Below, piece by piece: positions 222 through 37,604 of a stretch of DNA of 64,000 nt (position 1 is the first letter of the stretch; every line of letters begins with the position of its first letter). This DNA is from Nitrospirales bacterium. GTDB taxonomy: Bacteria; Nitrospirota; Nitrospiria; Nitrospirales; UBA8639. The stretch lies in the NCBI GenBank assembly GCA_031315915.1, contig JALDRK010000016.1, forward strand, positions 1 to 64,000, given 5' to 3'. The position numbers and the translations under genes are program-made. Under the pieces are notes generated by a model. The model searched no databases. It saw only the letters and a program-made list of their open reading frames with translations, and was not told where the DNA came from.

Positions 222-418
222 AATTAACTGAATCGTCACTAGGATCGAAATTCTTTACAAGAGAAAGGTTTGTAAGAACATATCACTTCATTGCCCTCGT
301 GGCCACTGACGCGCCGTCGTTAACTCTCATTCCACGGCAAATATGTCCAACCTATCTCCCGGGCGAATTTCAGGATGCGGACCTGGACATGTTTTATGTT
401 CGCGGGTACAAATATAGT

Positions 419-2269
419 TCAATTGATCATTCGCTTTGTAATGGTTGTAATTTCGTCTTCTGATAGCCTAGGCAAAGTCCATCCTTGCGCGAATTTTGCT
501 GTATCCGATTCTGGTAGCTTATCCTTGGGAAGATCGCGGATTCGAATACGTGCAGGTAGGGCAGCCCCTTCTCCAACAAAAATGGCTTCCTGCTGAGCTA
601 GATTCGGCAAGGCTTTGGTCATTCCTGAAAGTCCATCAGGAAGAAAGCGGGCAACATGCTGCTGGTCTGCGGAATTCGTTAGCCTTAGCACGAGCCATGT
701 ACCGCATTGAGAGATTACTGTACTTTCCACGTCAGCAGGGCGTTGACTCACGAGCATCAACCCTATCCCATATTTTCGACCTTCGCGAGCAATCCGCCTG
801 ATAGATGACTGTGCAGCGGCGTATTCAGCCTCTCCGCGATCCGGAACATAACGGTGCGCTTCTTCACATACGAGTAAAATTGGATCTCGCTCCCGTTCGG
901 CTACAGTCTGATAAAGTTTGTATTGGAATAGAAGCCTTGCGAGTACTGCCGACAAAGGTCCGGCCACTTCGTTTGGTAAGCCGGAAATGTCTATGATCCG
1001 AATATCGAGAGGCTGTCCATTTGCGCCTTTCAGGAGGCCAACTAATTGCCCAACGATTTGACCGAGAGATGGACTGGCACTTGTCCATTCAGTTATCAGG
1101 AATTGGATTCGCGGATCTCGGCGAAGCACTGCCAGTTTGTCTAATATGGACTTGAAAGATTTTGAAAATTCTGTGTCGGTAACGCGCTCAAGTTTGCCAT
1201 TTTTATCTCGAGCTGCCTGGAGGTATACGATGTGATTGTGAAACTCCTGAAGGGAGAACGGACGTGGTTTATCTCTATCAAATCCTGTGATTTGTTCCTG
1301 TGTGACACCTTTTTTGGGGCGAGGTTCGTCTGGAGGTAATCCGTCCGCTGGGGTATTAGTACCATATTTATTTGGTGCTGGATCAATGAGGTTTTCTGCA
1401 ACCATTCGTGCATGCGTGAGAGCCTTGTAAACGATGTTGTTTTGAGAGGTCGCTTCTTCTTCCGTTTTCCCAATCACGAGACGGCGAAACTCATCAGCGG
1501 ACATCAGCCAGTAGGGCAATTGAATGGGCTTACCGCTAGTTTCCTCGATGCCAATTGGGTCATAAGCACGATAGACTACCGCGCGATCGCCGAAAGCTTT
1601 TTTGTATTCGCCATGGGGATCAATAACTACGACTCGTGGAAAGCACACATCGTGGGCATTTGCCTTATGTTCAATTACGCTATGAAGCAAGGCAGCCACA
1701 GCGCCAGACTTGCCAGATCCGGTTGATCCCAGAATGGCACAGTGCATGCCAAACATCTTGTCGATATTTGCTCGGCAAAGCGCGTTGTCTGCACCAACAT
1801 AGTACGCAAACGGAACAAGGGGGTCATATCCGTTGCTGCTTTGCTGCCCCTCAGCAGACTTGTAAAGTTCGATAGTCTCCTGCCGGGTCAGAAGATAAAC
1901 TCCTTGACGAGGCAGAGGATAAGTGGTTACGCCACGGGCAAATCGCAATCTTTCTTCAGTCCCGTTCCATACGCCTTCGGCGAAAAGTTCGACTTCCATG
2001 ACGCGTTGATCGGCATCAGGAGGGATTGGCGTCGCGACCTCAAGCAGTTCCTCCGAACGCATTCGCAATAAGGTGACGAAACCAAAGACAAGCCGCCGTC
2101 CGAAGTGGACCTTCACGATGCTGCCGATCTGGCCAATCGGATAAACGCGCCCGTCATGAGTTCGGGTCAGTTCGGTGACGTCGCCGGAAAGTTCAACACG
2201 AATGGTTGTGCCGGTTACTTCGACAATGTGACCGATGTTCAGATCTGAGATGAGATCAAAGGAATTCAT
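419..2269 (-). CDS. HerA-type ATP-binding protein (DUF87), partner of SIR2-like NADase
   Basis: A 616-residue HerA/FtsK-superfamily hexameric ATPase. The N-terminal ~90 residues form the HAS-barrel-like part (NIGHIVEVTG..., VYPIGQIGSIVKV). The ATPase core shows Walker A GSTGSGKS at about residues 181-188, VIDPHGEY just after it, Walker B-like ILLVCEEAHRY and a C-terminal arginine-rich ATPase segment. I place the start at ATG 2269, inside the ATGA where the full-length upstream SIR2 frame ends; a longer frame opens at 2326. In known SIR2-HerA anti-phage systems the HerA hexamer binds SIR2 subunits and the complex depletes NAD+ on infection. The gene pair and motifs match that arrangement. HerA also occurs with NurA in DNA repair, but no NurA gene is nearby. 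Confidence 0.88.
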   Translation of the reverse strand: MNSFDLISDLNIGHIVEVTGTTIRVELSGDVTELTRTHDGRVYPIGQIGSIVKVHFGRRLVFGFVTLLRMRSEELLEVATPIPPDADQRVMEVELFAEGVWNGTEERLRFARGVTTYPLPRQGVYLLTRQETIELYKSAEGQQSSNGYDPLVPFAYYVGADNALCRANIDKMFGMHCAILGSTGSGKSGAVAALLHSVIEHKANAHDVCFPRVVVIDPHGEYKKAFGDRAVVYRAYDPIGIEETSGKPIQLPYWLMSADEFRRLVIGKTEEEATSQNNIVYKALTHARMVAENLIDPAPNKYGTNTPADGLPPDEPRPKKGVTQEQITGFDRDKPRPFSLQEFHNHIVYLQAARDKNGKLERVTDTEFSKSFKSILDKLAVLRRDPRIQFLITEWTSASPSLGQIVGQLVGLLKGANGQPLDIRIIDISGLPNEVAGPLSAVLARLLFQYKLYQTVAERERDPILLVCEEAHRYVPDRGEAEYAAAQSSIRRIAREGRKYGIGLMLVSQRPADVESTVISQCGTWLVLRLTNSADQQHVARFLPDGLSGMTKALPNLAQQEAIFVGEGAALPARIRIRDLPKDKLPESDTAKFAQGWTLPRLSEDEITTITKRMIN

Positions 2270-2430
2270 AGCACGCATGCCTCTGCACCGCTGTTCAGAA
2301 TCTTGGTGACTCCGGCGAATGTCCACCAGTCAAGTTTCTTTTCTGCAGATGGTGGAAAGAGGGGCCCTTCTGCTCCCACATATAACCCGGAATCAGTAAT
2401 GATGTAGAGACGTTTTCCCCAAGTAGTTCT
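2266..2430 (-). pseudogene. In-frame C-terminal remainder of the SIR2-like gene
   Basis: Directly after the TGA at 2433-2431 the same frame reads on as RTTWGKRLYIITDSGLYVGA, then a segment with DWWTFAGVTK, ending at a TGA at 2268-2266. The pattern 'KRLYxxTxxGLYVG ... DWWTF' is what I know from the C-terminal ends of SIR2-HerA-associated SIR2 proteins. The final TGA overlaps the herA ATG in an ATGA, the usual mark of translational coupling. This supports an intact ancestral gene of about 391 residues with one recent nonsense substitution, for example CGA or TTA to TGA. Confidence 0.75.
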
Positions 2431-3441
2431 TCACCAATTATCAAGGACCTCGCAAAGGGACCGAGAAAACGCCAGTATAGTAGTTTTGTTCTCTGGACGC
2501 TGAAGAGCCAGTTCAATCTCTTGATTGATGTGCTCGTCTCCGAAACTGTAGCCACAGACTGCCAAGACGTTTTCCCTGCCCGAGCCTAAAGCGCGCCGAA
2601 ACAAATCGAATTGAGCAGCAAAAGGATCCCTTTGTGTTGCGAGATATTTGGTGAATTGTGGATAAATGAGGACTCGACCTTTTCGCTCTGGATAGCCATC
2701 CACATCCCGCACTCGCCAAACTCGCTCATCTGGCCCTAGATGCCAATCAATCGAGCCATGGATTTTGATCACATGAGCTCTATAGCCTGAGTCAGGTTCG
2801 TTCTGACCATAGCGGTGGCTCCGATAAGCCACAGCGCCACCCGTAAAGCCGTCCCAATGAGAAAAGCAACCAAGGGCGAGTGCATCCTCCAAGAGCGTAT
2901 CGTAGTTGACTGTGAAGAAACGGACAGCTCGCCTCCTTTCTTCGATACCCTGTTGGTTTCTGTTGAAAAGGGCCTTGAGAAACTCTATATGCCCAGCCAC
3001 TGTGACAATGGTGTTCTCCCGAGATCCGATTTTTTCCGCATCATCAAGTATCTTCGGAACAAATCCCCACCGAATCGTCTCTGATATCCACTTCAACACT
3101 TTGGCGTGCAAGTCTTGCAACTGGTCGAGTTCGAGCCTTGTTTCTCCGACTAAAATGCTTTTGTCTTTTGATCGTTCTGCGATGGCTGCGAAATCAACTA
3201 GATGACTGAGGATGTGCTCAATATGGGAATTTTCTGGAAGCATGGCCTTCACCGCATCCAACACCTCCTTGGCCCCCTTGTCCTCGTCTTCGTCCGCCAT
3301 CGCAAACACGCGTGCTGTCAAAGGACCCATAAGGGGGATGTTCGCTGCGAAGCTTATGCCTGAGCCGAATAGCCAAGATTGATCTCCGGCAGCAAGTAGG
3401 TTATCGAGTTGCTTCAGGCAATCCGTGTCGATGGCTTCCAT
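2431..3441 (-). CDS. SIR2-like NADase of a SIR2-HerA defence pair, interrupted by in-frame TGA
   Basis: From ATG 3441 this encodes 336 residues of a SIR2-like protein (a TTG start at 3447 is also possible; GGGGA lies about 10 nt before the ATG). Numbered from the TTG, the Rossmann NAD-binding motif GSGISFAANIP is at 28-38, NYDTLLE near 181, the catalytic histidine in KIHGSIDWH near 230, and GYSFGDEH near 299. The expected activity is NAD+ hydrolysis during phage infection, together with the HerA ATPase encoded next. The frame stops at a TGA (2433-2431) after residues ...CEVLDNW, but the same frame stays open for 54 more sense codons that look like the family's C-terminus. The protein as read is therefore truncated by about 14 percent unless the stop is a sequence error or is read through. 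Confidence 0.85.
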   Translation of the reverse strand: MEAIDTDCLKQLDNLLAAGDQSWLFGSGISFAANIPLMGPLTARVFAMADEDEDKGAKEVLDAVKAMLPENSHIEHILSHLVDFAAIAERSKDKSILVGETRLELDQLQDLHAKVLKWISETIRWGFVPKILDDAEKIGSRENTIVTVAGHIEFLKALFNRNQQGIEERRRAVRFFTVNYDTLLEDALALGCFSHWDGFTGGAVAYRSHRYGQNEPDSGYRAHVIKIHGSIDWHLGPDERVWRVRDVDGYPERKGRVLIYPQFTKYLATQRDPFAAQFDLFRRALGSGRENVLAVCGYSFGDEHINQEIELALQRPENKTTILAFSRSLCEVLDNW

Positions 3442-3447
3442 GGTCAA

Positions 3448-3815
3448 GAGATCCCCACAAGGAGTTATTCGATGTCCAATATGTCAAAGCGATCCTTTGC
3501 CGTCATAAGCTAGTGCAACAGTGTGTGGAGAAGAACTCTGAGCACGGCATGGTTGTGCTGGTGTTGTAAGTGTTTTCGCGCCATCACCGCATTATTAGGT
3601 TCAGCATGTCATTGGTGCACAAGAGTACCCTTTTCCTCTTAAAAAATCACTCCTATACAAAGAGAAAATGGCTGTTTTTTCATAAGATTACCCATGGATT
3701 GAGTTGATCGACATAGTATTGAGGCCTGACATCCTATTGAACGACTTTTTCTGCTTAGCTGGCCTCGCGTGCCAAAAGATGATGGGGCTAGATCACCGAG
3801 AGCAAGAGCATTCCA
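3448..3815. other. Intergenic region between SIR2-HerA module and glycosyltransferase cluster
   Basis: This is 368 bp without a supported gene. It is AT-rich around 3640-3700 and separates two minus-strand units. I see no convincing tRNA, terminator or repeat in it. Open frames across it on the plus strand have no recognisable protein character. Confidence 0.5.
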
Positions 3816-5554
3816 CTACAAGAGGGGTTCGCTGGAGAGAAGAGAAAATCCACCATGGTCTAACACCACTTTCCACTCCGACATGGTTTCGGGGAGTTGT
3901 CCGCGCAGAGGAGTTTGCAGGATGGCCATTTTGCGGCCTGGCGCAGAAAGGTGTTGAGGCAGGTCTTCGTCATTGAGCCCGAGAAAGTGTACTTTGCGTT
4001 TCGCGTAAAAGCTGAGGGAGGGACGCTTGCGGCCAAATTGAATCAATCGATCATCCTTGCCAAGATTCAGCCCGGCAATCACGGCCAATTCCTGCGGTGG
4101 GCCGACAAAATATTGTTGGTAAACCGGCAAGCCCCATCGTGCCAGCACTACGGTAAAGATCAGCATCATGCCGCACCCTGCCCAGGAGGCCAAATGGCGT
4201 TTCGAGTCGGACAACATCCAATGCCGCATGAGCATGGTGCCCAGCACAATGACGATCCCCAGGATCGACGGAAGCCAGTTCAGATCCACATGCACGGCAG
4301 CCGGAAACTCCTTGGCAATCTGTTTCATGAACAATTGAAAGGCGGCCGGTGCAAAGGTCAAGGCAATGCCGAAAAGATACCCTGTCCAGATGAGCACCCG
4401 TGTGGATGTCGTCAGCCCGACCGGATTCTCTTCCGCCAGCAAGCGTTTCCACCATATGGCCGCAAGCACGGTCGCCGCCGGAAACAAGGGATAAATATAA
4501 TGCGGCAATCGGGTGGCCGAAAGGGTAAAGAACAGCAGTAACCCCACCACCCAGACACTGAGAAAGAACGTCAGATTGGATTCGGGCGAGGAAAATGCTC
4601 TGCCCCGCCAATAGTCCTTCCACCGTTTCAGCGTTTGGTATAACACCGAAGGCAGGACTGCACTCCACGGAAACAACCCCAAAAGCAAAACAGGCAGATA
4701 AAAGAACATCGTTCCCCCATGGCCTTCCATGGGACTCATGAACCGACCGGTGGTGTTGGCTTGCGCCGCCGCCCAATAGGCGTCGCCATGGATTTGAAAC
4801 ATCATATGAGATACCAGGGCGCCACGGCCATGACTAATAGACTGCCCACTAGGGGAAATCCACGGCGCCAAAATATTCCCCACTGGCGCGTAAGGATAAG
4901 ATACGGGATCACCCCCACCAGCGGAATGATGATGCCGACGGGTCCCTTGACCAACATGCCGAATCCCATAGCCAGATAAAAAACCGCGAATAACCAACGC
5001 CTGGCCTGGTCATGCTGCATGGCCTGCCAAAAGCTATAACCCGCCATCGTGGTAAATACCACCAGCTCCGGGTCGGTCAGCACCATGCGATTGATTCCCA
5101 TGAATTCGAGATTCAGCAGCAACATGAACGAAGCCCAGACGGCCACCGTTGAGCCCGCCCACTTGCGGACAAACACGTATTGAAGCAACAGGAGACAAAG
5201 GCCGGACATGGCCGACGGCCATCGTGCGGCAAATTCATTGACGCCGAACAGGGTATACGACCCGCTGATCAGCCAATACACAAAGGCCGGTTTGGCATAG
5301 CGAGGCTCGTAGTTAAGGGTTGGAGAAATCCAATCGCCTGTTTCCAGCATCTCCCTGGCCGCTTCGGCATTGCTGCCTTCATCACGATCGGTGAGTCCGA
5401 GTGCGCCAAGATCCGGACCGAACAGCCGGCCTCCGTCCAAGCCCAACAACCAGGCTGCCAACAGCAGAAGACACGCCACATGAAGAAGAGGAGAATGTGA
5501 AATGGGAGCACGAGATGAGACGGCGGAATGGTCTGGAGAGGGGGGGCTATCCAC
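3816..5554 (-). pseudogene. GT39/ArnT-like membrane glycosyltransferase, broken by a frameshift near 4803
   Basis: Two overlapping frames together make one polytopic dolichyl-P-mannose/ArnT-type transferase of about 580 residues. The first part (GTG start 5554, to 4802) has the GT-C hallmark TDRDEG in the first periplasmic loop, several membrane helices and ends ...VAPWYLI. The second part resumes in another frame at MFQIHGDAYWAAAQ and carries further helices (FYLPVLLLGLFPWS). The family's PWY-x6-HG spacing is restored if the local CTCATATGATG is read as CTCATGATG, so an extra AT (or one lost base) near 4803 explains the break. Such enzymes transfer sugars from polyprenyl phosphate to lipid A or other envelope acceptors. 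The gene overlaps the LAB_N gene by 8 bp and forms a unit with the GT2 gene upstream. It may be a real pseudogene or a sequence error. Confidence 0.8.
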
Positions 5555-8179: not shown

Positions 8180-8202
8180 GGAGTTATGACCAAGGGGGAG
8201 GA

Positions 8203-9775
8203 TTACCCTTTATCGCGCATGAGTTTAAATTCGATGCTATCTGCCAGGGCCTGCCAGCTTGCCTCAATGATATTCTCGGAGACCCCGACCGTGCCCCATT
8301 TATCCTTGAGGTCACCCGATTCAATCAAGACTCTGACCCGAGAACCCGTCCCGTGCCGACCTGTCAGCACACGAACTTTATAGTCCAGTAATTTCATCTC
8401 CCGCAACTGGGGATAAAATCCTTCCAACGCTTTCCGGAGAGCGTTATCCAACGCATTGACCGGTCCGTGCCCTACAGCGGCCGTATGCTCCACCAGCTCT
8501 GACTTTCACCCATGATGGTGGCTTCGAGATGGATCTTCATTGGTCTTTCGTTTTTCCACGATGATCCGGCAGCTCAACAGCTCAAACGAAGGCGTGTGTC
8601 CCCATGGCCTTGCGCACCAGCAACTCGAACGAGCCTTCCGCCCCTTCGAATTGATAGCCTTCAAATTCCAACGACTTTAACGACGCCAACAGCTCTTGGA
8701 CCTTCGATTATCCTGGGGAAGGTCGAGACCCAGCATTTCCATTTTCAAACACGACTCGCCCGGTTGTTTTCCGAAATCAGTACCTTCGACGTTGATTCCC
8801 ACGACCCAGGATTCACGTGTTCATAGGTCATCTCGATTTTTCTTGGACGGCGTGAATATGTACGCCCCCTTTATGGGCAAATGCCGTATCGCCCACATAA
8901 GGCTGCCGTTTGTTGGGGGTCAGATTGGCCATTTCCGCCACAAAATGGGAAATGTTTCGGAGGTTGTTCAACCGGCCGTCTTCCAAAGCCTCGTACCCCA
9001 TCTTGAGTTCAAGATTGGCCATGATGGAACAGAGATTGGCGTTTCCACAGCGTTCCCCGATGCCATTGATCGTCCCCTGCACTTGAATGGCCCCGGCCCG
9101 AACCGCAACCAACGAATTGGCCACTCCCATCTCCGAATCATTGTGCGCATGAATGCCCAACGGCACCGAACAACAGGCCTTGACCTTGGGAAAAATTTCT
9201 TGGACTTCCCAGGGCATGGTCCCGCCATTGGTATCGCATAAAATAATTCGTTCGGCCCCTGCCGCAACGGCCGCCTGCAGGGTTTTCAGCGCATACGCCG
9301 GATCGGTCTTATAGCCGTCAAAAAAATGTTCCGCATCATAAAAGACCCGTCGTCCATGGTTTTTGAGAAAAGCGATGGAATCGCCGACCAGCTCTACATT
9401 TTTCTCTAGAGTGGTTTCCAGGGCCTCCGTGACATGTAACGTCCAGCTTTTTCCAAAAATCGTCACAATCTCGGTCTCGGCCGACAGTAACGCCTCCAGC
9501 GTGGGATCCGACTCTGCGGTATTTTTGGCTTTTCTGGTTGACCCGAATGCCACGATCCGAGCCCGCTTGAGGGGGAGAGACTTAAGAATCCGGAAAAACT
9601 CGATATCCTTGGGATTGGCTCCCGGCCAACCCCCCTCAATATAATGTACGCCTAGCTCATCCAACCGCTGAGCGATACGGACTTTATCCTCCACCGAAAA
9701 ACTCACGTCTTCGGCTTGGGAGCCATCCCGAAGGGTCGTATCGTAAATTTCGATACTGGAAGCAGAAATGGTCAT
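8203..9775 (-). pseudogene. cimA: Citramalate synthase, reading frame broken many times at about 8500-8840
   Basis: Citramalate synthase (pyruvate + acetyl-CoA to citramalate) opens the threonine-independent isoleucine route. The N-terminal 305 residues are intact ([12 protein letters not shown], the metal-binding [27 protein letters not shown]). The C-terminal regulatory domain is intact from about 8493 ([20 protein letters not shown]) to 8203. Between them, conserved family segments appear one after another in different frames: [75 protein letters not shown] (each given in short pieces). Total length, about 524 codons, is normal for the family, so bases were gained and lost rather than a block deleted. 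It is the last gene of the amino-acid operon, 42 bp after lysC. Confidence 0.85.
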
Positions 9776-9813
9776 GCTCTTGGGTTTCCCGAAACTCTCG
9801 ATTCGTTTTCCTC

Positions 9814-14767: not shown

Positions 14768-15953
14768 GATTCCACCATACTGTCCATTTTCAACGCCTGT
14801 TTAATTCCCCGAACCGCTTGGAAGATCCGGTGTTCATTTTCCACCAAGGCAAATCGCACATACTCATCGCCTCCATCACCAAACCCGATGCCGGGTGACA
14901 CCGCCACCTTGGCATCCTGAAGCAAGAGTTTGGAAAACTCCAAAGAGCCCATTCCGCGAAACGGAGGAGGAATTTTTGCCCAGACAAACATGGTGGCCCT
15001 GGGATAATCCACTTCCCACCCAATTCGATTCAGCCCACGCACCAGGGCATTTCGACGACGCTCATACCGCCCGACAATGTCCTTGACGCAATCCTGCGGC
15101 CCATTTAAGGCAATAATACTGGCAATTTGAATCGGTTGAAACATCCCATAATCCAAATAACTTTTGATCTTCGTCAAGGCGCCGATGACCTCGCGATTCC
15201 CAACACAAAATCCGACACGCCACCCGGCATATTATAGCTTTTGGACAGGGAGTAAAACTCCACGCCGATTTTTTTCGCCTCGGGAATTTGTAGAAGACTC
15301 GGCGCTCGATAGCCGTCAAACACCAGATCGGCGTAGGCGAGATCATGAATCACCCAGACCTGGTGTTCCAACGCAAATTCCACGACCTTTTTAAAAAACT
15401 CCAGGTCCACCACCCGGGTCGTGGGATTGTGGGGGAAACTGATAATCAGCGCACGCGGCCTGGGCTGGGTTTGCTTAAACGCCCTCGTCAGGTTTTCAAA
15501 AAAATCGGACTCGGAATTCAGCTCGACGCCACGAACCTCTCCTCCCGCAATGATCACACTATACATATGAATGGGATAGGTGGGCGTCGGCGCCAACACC
15601 ACATCACCGGGTCCCACCATAGCCAAAGCCAGATGTGCCAATCCCTCTTTGACGCCCAAAGTCACAATCGCTTCGGTTTCCGGATCCAGACTGACCTCAT
15701 AATGACGTTGGTACCATCCGCAAATGGCATGCCGTAATTTGGTAATACCACGGGAAGCCGAATAGCGATGATTTCGACCTAATTGGGCCGCTTCCAACAG
15801 TTTATCGACAATATGACGTGGGGTGGGCTGATCCGGATTCCCCATGCCCATATCAATAATATCTTCCCCTCGCTTCCGTGCTTGGAGTTTCAACTCCTGA
15901 ACTTGACTAAACACGTATCCTGGCAATCGTTGAATTCGGTAAAAAGGTTCCAT
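14764..15953 (-). pseudogene. alaC: Alanine/aspartate-type aminotransferase (AlaC-like), frameshift near 15222
   Basis: A PLP-dependent class I/II aminotransferase of about 396 residues in two frames. The first (15953-15174) has the N-terminal [42 protein letters not shown] and the PLP lysine in [10 protein letters not shown]. The family's [10 protein letters not shown] then continues in the next frame: reading one extra base at CCGGGTGGC restores it and joins to [20 protein letters not shown]. The second frame ends at 14764, overlapping hom by 4 bp. Family members (AlaC, DapL-like or Asp aminotransferases) fit a role at the head of the aspartate-family operon; the substrate is not settled. 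One missing base is the simplest explanation of the break. Confidence 0.85.
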
Positions 15954-29270: not shown

Positions 29271-31816
29271 TTAAAGCTTTCCGGCTTCTTCTTCCAAGAC
29301 AAACGCTTCGAGGATATCACCCGCTTTGAGATCGTTATAATTTTCGACCCCTATTCCGCATTCGTATCCCTGCTGGACTTCCCGGGCATCGTCCTTGAAG
29401 CGACGCAAAGAGCCGATTTTCCCCTCATACATCACCACCTGATCACGAAGGACCCGAATACGGGCATTAGACCTGACGATAGTCCCATCACTGACATAAC
29501 ACCCGGCGATCACCCCGACTTTGGGTACCGTGAATAATTGTCGAACCTCAGCATGCCCGGTTACCCGCTCTTTTATGGTAGGCGCCAACAGTCCTTCGGC
29601 AGCCGAACGGATATCATTCAACACTTCATAAATAATGTTGTACAGTCGAATCTCCACTTTTTCCCGTTCAGCTAAACCGGTGGCTTTTGAATCAGGCCTG
29701 ACATGAAAACCGACAATGATGGCATTCGAAGCCGACGCTAAGAGCACGTCCGATTCGTTAATCCCCCCGACACCACTATGAATCACCCGAAGCTTCACGG
29801 CCTTGGTCGATAGTTTCTGAAGAGCCTCGACCAATGCCCCGATCGATCCTTGCACATCCGCTTTGACGAGAAGGGCCAATTCCTTGGTTTCCCCATCCTG
29901 GATATCGGCATAGAGATCCTCCAGGGTTTTTTTCGGAGCAGGCGACTGCCCTACATCTTTTTGTTTTTGCTGTCGGGCCCCGGCAATTTCCCGGGCCGCA
30001 CGATCATCCTTCACCACCACTAATTGATCTCCGGCCTCGGGGACACCCAATAATCCAATGACCTCAACAGGAGTCGATGGTCCGGCCTTCTTCAAGCGTT
30101 CCCCCTTATCAGAGGTCAATCCCCGAACCCGGCCACTCACCGCTCCCACCACAAATATATCGCCGATTTTTAATGTCCCACCCTGAATCAGCATTGTAGC
30201 CACCGGTCCACGACCGCGATCCAACTTCGCTTCCAGCACCACACCCCGGGCGGAACAGCCCACGTCGGCTTTGAGTTCCATGATTTCGGCTTGAAGCAGC
30301 AACATATCCAGGAGGTGGTCCAGCCCAAGATTTTGCTTGGCGGAGACCTCCGCATAGATGGTTTGACCACCCCAGGACTCCGAGTCAATCCATACTCGGC
30401 CAGGTTTTGCTTTACACGGTCCGGGTTCGCCCCGGGCTTATCCATTTTATTCACCGCAACAATAATCGGGACATTGGCCGCCTGGGCATGGTTGATGGCT
30501 TCAACGGTCTGAGGCATCACTCCATCATCAGCAGCCACGACCAGCACGACGATATCCGTGACTTGGGCTCCACGGGCCCGCATGGCCGTGAAGGCTTCAT
30601 GTCCCGGGGTGTCCAAAAATGTCACTGCCCGATCCCCGACCTTTACAAAAGAAGCCCCGATATGCTGCGTAATGCCCCCAGCCTCGCGGTCCGTCACTTG
30701 GGTTTTTCGAATGGCGTCCAATAAGGAAGTTTTGCCATGATCGACATGTCCCATAACCGTCACTACTGGGGCTCGAGGCTCTAATTGCTTGGCCTCTTCT
30801 CCCTCCAACGCCTCTTCAAGCAACGCCTCTCCGCTTTTTTCCACAACGGTCTCCACGGCAATACCATACCCCTCGGCAATCAAAACGCCCGCCTCTAAGT
30901 CCATGGGCTGATTCAGGGTTTTAATTACATTCAAGTCCATGAGTTTTCTGATGATTTCAGTCGGTTTTTGGCCTAACAATTCTGCGAACTCTTTGACTGT
31001 CATTCCGGACGCCACCTTTAACCCTTTTTTCCGTGGTTTGGTAATTTCCCCGACTGTAGCCGGTTGGACCTGGCGAGAGCGTTCTTCCCTTCTCAATGTC
31101 GGAAGAGGCCGGAGGTCCTGCCAAACAGCCGCATCCTCAAATCTGGCCGCAAACAGATCCTCATCCCGTAAGCGCGGAGATTTCTTGGTTTTCTTCCCCT
31201 TCTCTTCCGCTTCCTCACGACCAACGCTTTTTCTATCCGGCCTTCCTTCACTTTTCTTTTCTTTTTCTCCCTCTTTGCCTGTGACTACTTGGGGTCCTTG
31301 AACCGCCTCAAGGGAACCCGCCGCAGCCGTTTCACCCACAACTTCTCCCGGTCCCTTCCCAGACAAAACCGCCACATCAGTCGGGGAATCGTGTGATTCG
31401 AATTCCTGAGGAGGAACGACCTCTATCGTATCTGTATGGTCGTGGTGCCCATCACCATCACCCTCGGGTCTTGACGAAGGAAATTCCTCAGCTTCGCCGG
31501 AAATATCTTCGTCGGATTTTTTCCTCTTTATCAGAATACGTTTTTTATCAACCTTTTTCGGCTCTTCAACGGTGCTCTCGCCGCTTAACTTCGCGCCGAT
31601 GTGAGAGGAAGGGCTTTCGACCGCGGCACGACTAAAGGGCCCATCTTTAACGACCGGTTCAGGAATCTTGCCCTGCAACACATCAATAGCCCACTTCGCC
31701 ACATCTTCTTCCACGGCATTACTGTGAGACGTGACGGAGATTCCCAGTCGCACTAATTCGGGAATCAACAGACGGCTTTCCATCCCGACTTTTTTTGCTA
31801 TTTCATAAACTCGCAT
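29271..31816 (-). pseudogene. infB: Translation initiation factor IF-2, frame broken near 30382
   Basis: IF-2 of about 849 codons in two frames. The first (31816 to about 30382) has the IF2_N helical domain ([20 protein letters not shown]), a charged low-complexity linker, a second IF2_N-like segment ([20 protein letters not shown]), and the G domain with [23 protein letters not shown] and NKMDKPG. After LAEYGLT the frame is lost; restoring one C in ACTC-GGAG gives [19 protein letters not shown] and joins the second frame, which runs through domains II-IV to ELKADVG... and the C-terminal fMet-tRNA-binding domain ending at 29271. IF-2 is essential, so an assembly or sequencing error is far more likely than a true pseudogene. 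Confidence 0.93.
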
Positions 31817-36039: not shown

Positions 36040-37604
36040 ATGAAATCTCAAATAACGCACGACAGCCCTACCTCCTTTCTCAATAGTCTGTTGGAAGATG
36101 CTCCCGAAACACTCCCAATTCTCAGACAAAGCTGCATTCAAGTCCTCAACCTGACTGAAGATTCCCGATCCAGCGCCGGAGATGTGGGGGACGTGATTAT
36201 GCGGGATCAGGCCCTCATGGCCAATGTGATTAAAATCGCCAATAGCGCGGCGTTTCACACCCGGGTTCCGGTTAAAACTCCGACCCATGCGGTAGCGATA
36301 ATCGGATTTGATGTGATTCGAGCCATGACCGTCGGCTCTCAATTAATCGAACAAGCCGATGCCTACGGGGCGAACACGAAATGTTTAAAACATCTCCTGG
36401 CTCGGGCGCTAGTGGCCGGAACCCATGCACAAGAGATGGGAAACGCCATGAATTTCGGCGAACCCGGTTTTTTGTTTACCAATGCCATGTTGTATTCCCT
36501 GGGAGACTTAATCCTGGCCCTCTGTCGACCGGAATTTTCCGAACAACTGGAAACGATACGTCAACAGGATCCTGACAGTATCCCAAAAGCCGAATTGGCC
36601 CTGCTGGGACGCCCGCTCCGCACCATTGCCGCCGCCATGGCCCGGCACTGGCATTTGCCCGATACTCTGATTACCCTCCTGGATAAAAAACCTGTTTGGC
36701 CTGCTACCAAACCAACCTCTGAGCAACAAATCATGGAAGGCATTGTTCAGGCCGCCAATGCACTCAGCTATACCCTGCTCAACCCCACCGCAAAAGGGCA
36801 AGGCGACATCCTCAACAATCTGATCGAAAAGTTTCTTCCACCCTACGGGTTCTCGTTCGATCAATTAAAACAGATATCCACCAAAGCCTTTCTCAAAACA
36901 TCCGAGATGGCCAAAGTGATTAACATCGAATCTCACCATTTGACTCCTGTCATAGACCAAGACCAACCTACCATTCATTTTCAACCCTTAAACCAACTGA
37001 CCCAGGCCATTCAGCACGCATTAAACCCTGAAGAACACCCACCTGAAACATTAGAAGAGCCCGATTCCGTCACTCCTCCTGCCACACGTCCCGCCCCCAC
37101 ATCCGATCATCTCCTCTTTGACTTCACCCTCCAGGCGATGAAGATTCGTGAAGCCTCCACCTTAACCTTACCTTGGCCGGGAAAACACTGTATGCCTCTT
37201 ACGGATTTGAGCGAGTACTCCTGGCCCTCGTGACACCCAACAAAGAAAAAATCACCGGCAAAATGGGATTTGGAACCTACGTCGACTCCATGGTTCCGCT
37301 TTTTCAGGTGCCATTGAATCCCGGCACCTTCTGCTACCGGCTGTTGATCCAATATCAAACGTTCCGGTACCAGTCATTGGAAAAAGAACCGGATGCAGGA
37401 GTTATCCCGGAGGAATTTCTGAAACAATGGGGACCTTTCTCCGGTCTGGTCGGTGCGCTCTATGCCCCCAAAAAACCCATCGGTTTGATTTTTGCCGACC
37501 GCGGAGCCACCGAAGTCCAGCTGACTGAAGCCGATTTCGCCACATTTTCGATTGTGCTATCCCAAACCAACGCGAATCTGGCACGCATCACCCAACAAAC
37601 CTAA
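36040..37604 (+). pseudogene. HDOD-domain signalling protein, frameshift near 37170
   Basis: About 521 codons in two frames. The first part (36040 to about 37170) holds the HDOD domain: LPILRQSCIQVLNL, IMRDQALMANVIKIANSAAF, THAVAIIGFDVIRAMTVGS and a C-terminal MARHWHLPDTLI segment. The continuation in the next frame (LAGKTLYASYGFERVLLALVTP... to 37604) looks like the GAF-like C-terminal domain seen in some HDOD proteins. One lost base around ACCTTACCTTGG explains the break. HDOD proteins take part in signalling of stress or surface behaviour; the specific role is unknown. Confidence 0.8.

Follow-up and report, generated by a model that had tools for sequence, protein, structure and literature searches.

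An in-frame stop codon ahead of a conserved C-terminal tail in the SIR2 gene of a SIR2-HerA (Nezha-type) operon from a Nitrospirales bacterium

Examining a 64,000-nucleotide stretch of contig JALDRK010000016.1 from a Nitrospirales bacterium (hereafter the window), we found what is, judged from its sequence, an ordinary SIR2-HerA (Nezha-type) anti-phage operon carrying a single lesion (Table 1). We see about even chances that this lesion arose very recently as a nonsense substitution, at a codon for Arg or Gln elsewhere in the family, and that it removed the last 55 residues of SIR2 without touching herA. An in-frame stop in a defence gene should be set beside the kinds of error seen in its own contig and the codon-level constraint on the tail beyond it; having done so, we lean slightly towards a real nonsense mutation of recent date over a base error in the assembly. 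If real, the stop would add to the cases in which mutation disables a costly abortive-infection gene and spares its partner. The locus belongs to a known defence family and bears one sporadic lesion, and neither a new mechanism nor a new reading of the genetic code is called for. We infer all three of the presence of the TGA in the cells, the loss of function and the cause of the lesion.

Table 1. Features of the SIR2-HerA locus and indel-split conserved genes, in window coordinates.
Feature	Position	Strand	Description or basis
SIR2 (NADase-type), part before internal stop	2434..3441	-	336 codons from ATG 3441
In-frame TGA in SIR2	2431..2433	-	Arg or Gln codon in all compared homologues, closest CGA
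SIR2 tail	2266..2430	-	54 sense codons and terminal TGA; conserved family C-terminal tail
ATGA overlap	2266..2269	-	SIR2 stop (TGA 2268-2266) and herA start (ATG 2269-2267); sequence and homologous junctions
herA ATPase	419..2269	-	616 aa, intact; PADLOC PDLC04105 (E = 3.9e-139), Pfam DUF87
Mannosyltransferase-like gene	near 4807 (4802-4808)		Indel split, against intact orthologues
Citramalate/isopropylmalate-synthase-like (cimA-like) gene	8194-9790		About seven indels in 8504-8842 (~340 bases)
Aminotransferase	near 15224 (15198-15225)		One deletion, by frameshift-aware alignment
infB (IF-2)	near 30385 (30380-30389)		One-base deletion, frameshifted
Further conserved gene	near 37165 (37164-37167)		Indel split, against intact orthologues

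The first-pass annotation had recognized a SIR2-HerA pair, and profile searches bore this out, with the part of SIR2 before the stop matching PADLOC PDLC04088 (E = 8.6e-130) and Pfam SIR2_2 (E = 5.1e-13), herA matching PDLC04105, and both motif sets present. Upstream of the TGA, SIR2 holds the NAD-binding GSGIS, the NYD motif (FTVNYDTLLED), the histidine of KIHGSIDW, and GDEHIN, while herA holds Walker A (GSTGSGKSG) and Walker B (LLVCEEAH) motifs. The locus shares both proteins, gene order, the ATGA overlap and the catalytic motifs with the two-gene SIR2-HerA (Nezha) system, but its SIR2, unlike that of the system, has an internal TGA 55 codons ahead of the normal end. The ATGA overlap that had been read at the junction is indeed there, at 2269-2266, and is kept in most homologous loci; the most likely start of herA is this ATG at 2269, matching the homologues, and not GTG 2326. 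The length of herA equals that of the homologues and its private changes are not in excess (2 at 270 otherwise invariant columns). The span of 419-3447 originally given for the locus needed one correction, in that SIR2 likely starts at ATG 3441, with 3447 being an upstream in-frame TTG.

Minus-strand translation confirmed that the TGA cuts the SIR2 frame at 2433-2431, and the earlier count of 54 sense codons beyond it, with the frame ending at 2266, proved exact (final TGA 2268-2266). The frame reads SRSLCEVLDNW up to the stop, resumes with RTTWGKRLYIITDSGLYVGA and closes with LDWWTFAGVTKILNSGAEACVL before the final stop. Alignment across the TGA is gapless and the lesion is of the substitution type, in contrast to the other breaks in the window, which are indels, as had been noted. 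The text after the TGA had been described as family-typical, and the tail by itself does match the PDLC04088 C-terminus (positions 344-389 of 390, E = 1.3e-11), which rules out a chance open frame; adding it lifts the whole-protein PDLC04088 score from 431 to 489 bits, and the read-through protein spans positions 5-389.

Scanning genome contigs, we found 18 clear SIR2 homologues (52-79% identity), and all 18 run past the point corresponding to LDNW, where the truncated protein ends. The residue at the TGA position is Arg in 14 and Gln in 4, with CGA as the codon in the nearest homologue, and 17 of the 18 reach the usual SIR2 end, so that a full-length subunit, absent from the given sequence with its TGA at 2433-2431, is encoded in every compared homologue but one. 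By descent, the locus described here is a SIR2-HerA member with a broken subunit. The closest homologue, in a Methylococcaceae MAG (L002; JAQTSI010000185), has 79% protein identity over the SIR2 body and 84% over herA, with a DNA identity to window positions 347-3563 of about 78%; its SIR2 is intact, with CGA at the TGA position, whereas the present one is interrupted. Reading by eye, we take the genes that this Methylococcaceae pair follows to be type I restriction-like genes of the hsdM/hsdS type. The exception among the 18, in Desulfogranum marinum DSM 2058 (L004), belongs to the same SIR2-HerA subfamily and has a broken SIR2 tail and an intact herA, but its break is a frameshift by a 7-bp tandem duplication (CGGCAAA-CGGCAAA, about 6045-6065 of L004), while the present break is a stop substitution.

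To place the stop in time, we compared constraint on either side of it. Against the Methylococcaceae gene, the part before the stop gave dN 0.122 and dS 0.681 (dN/dS 0.18) and the part after it dN 0.118 and dS 0.735 (dN/dS 0.16). Of the 110 body columns that are otherwise invariant, 2 carry a private residue in the present protein (an S for the A of the GAGIS motif, and a C for an N a few codons ahead of the stop), and of 10 such tail columns none does; intact relatives are similar. Because dN/dS is equal on both sides, the stop is either very recent or not real, and the substitution pattern points to selection that kept the SIR2 tail until very recently, or still does. A long-standing pseudogene is ruled out, tail dN/dS being that of the body and herA being unremarkable.

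We evaluated the error spectrum of the contig by aligning orthologues from eight relatives to the window and considering 29 conserved genes. The assembly is indel-noisy and of poor base quality: indels split 5 of the 29, and outside the window a tRNA-Ser(GGA)-like gene on contig 23 (L073 153-242) lacks one anticodon-loop base. Since the genome has no other good IF-2 match, the most sensible reading of the infB break is a consensus error. The most heavily damaged gene, which from its sequence we take to be a citramalate/isopropylmalate synthase (pyrG was rejected, since an intact pyrG lies elsewhere in the genome), has protein identity to a relative of 0.82 within its indel patch and 0.80 before it, compared with 0.85 and 0.83 for an intact relative; with identity undiminished in the patch and the same pattern in the intact relative, the patch reflects a faulty consensus, not decay of the gene. 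Nonsense substitutions were absent from the 29 conserved window genes aligned to relatives, the stops listed in this check lying in matches that are antisense or out of frame, in upstream extensions or in the indel patch. A substitution stop is thus less typical of errors in this assembly, though the bound that 29 genes set is a weak one.

These observations bear directly on the two readings that carry most of the weight. That the TGA is an assembly base error, with SIR2 intact and ordinary and SIR2-HerA working, is quite possible while falling short of an even chance: the contig is rich in errors (infB, the cimA-like gene, the aminotransferase, two further split genes, tRNA-Ser), and an intact gene bearing a base error would likewise show even constraint on the two sides of the stop and no decay. 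Every recognized error is however an indel, none of the 29 conserved genes has a nonsense substitution, and identity is not lowered even in the worst indel patch, such that substitution errors seem rarer. Our rough estimate is that nonsense base errors expected per gene and fresh real nonsense in a defence gene would be of similar size, and it is the error spectrum, with indels as the window's breaks and a substitution stop as not its usual error, that slightly tips the balance to a real mutation. A recent real lesion also accords with the equal dN/dS and the few private changes, as in intact relatives, and the duplication in Desulfogranum marinum implies that such tail lesions occur in other genomes. 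The genome holds no second SIR2 copy, and 60 relatives yielded no same-species sequence for checking the base, the SIR2 subfamily being absent from them (distant SIR2 matches only, at 42% identity or less); the exact stop site was likewise not found in viral contigs.

Readings in which the interrupted gene still serves the cell fare much worse. The TGA might be read through or recoded, giving low-level full-length SIR2 and perhaps dosage control of a toxic NADase, and it is true that the frame stays open after the TGA with a conserved and constrained tail; we nonetheless consider this improbable. The stop is common to no homologue, and at its position the 18 homologues have no Cys, Trp or conserved UGA, all of them having Arg or Gln, by which the logic of selenocysteine fails. 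A C directly after a stop codon makes for a leaky context, and the base here is A. A UCA-anticodon tRNA was absent among 40 tRNA genes (in a genome 91.6% complete, so that this absence is not absolute), and the tRNA-Sec model gave only sub-threshold matches in the genome, several of which fall on ordinary tRNA genes; on these two results a selenocysteine or suppressor tRNA was rejected, as was an alternative genetic code by the presence of RF2. Among the three explanations put forward in the first-pass annotation, stop-codon readthrough is thus the least supported, with recent inactivation and base error the two likelier ones. We give similarly little credence to a truncated SIR2 that is a functional variant, or to tail lesions as a reversible off-switch of a costly defence gene. 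Both lesions seen in about 20 loci do lie within the final 15 percent of SIR2 or immediately ahead of it, with the body and herA intact, and the 7-bp duplication in Desulfogranum marinum can revert by slippage. These are however two cases only and differ in kind, a point nonsense is no switch, and in every other member the tail shows conservation and constraint. It is accordingly very unlikely that SIR2 tail lesions sparing the catalytic body and herA constitute a recurrent, tolerated or reversible off-state of SIR2-HerA, two in about twenty loci being too few for claiming a pattern.

For the favoured recent nonsense mutation, a path to loss of function can be proposed from relatives, whose SIR2 dodecamer and HerA hexamer join in a complex that restricts phage, the NAD+ pocket opening once HerA is bound (PMC12198126; PMC11263360). 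In a working system, by homology, infection would switch on NAD+ hydrolysis by the SIR2-HerA complex. The AlphaFold model of the intact Methylococcaceae SIR2, of modest confidence (mean pLDDT 66, tail blocks 59-88), has SIR2-HerA complexes as its best PDB matches (8wld, 8uae, 8sub, 8j4u; E 4.7e-11) and places strands 347-351, 354-357 and 360-363 and C-terminal helices in the tail. The shortened SIR2 would keep its catalytic residues and lose this last conserved strand/helix segment, and it would probably misfold or fail to assemble. Its translation would also end 165 bases ahead of the herA start, probably weakening coupled herA translation; the outcome in this strain would be an inactive SIR2-HerA system.

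Farther afield among SIR2-HerA pairs, a distant one in E. coli 65COLEC (L117 5989-9044) sits between phage-polarity-suppression/ogr genes and an integrase adjoining tRNA-Thr, and is apparently cargo of a P4-like satellite.
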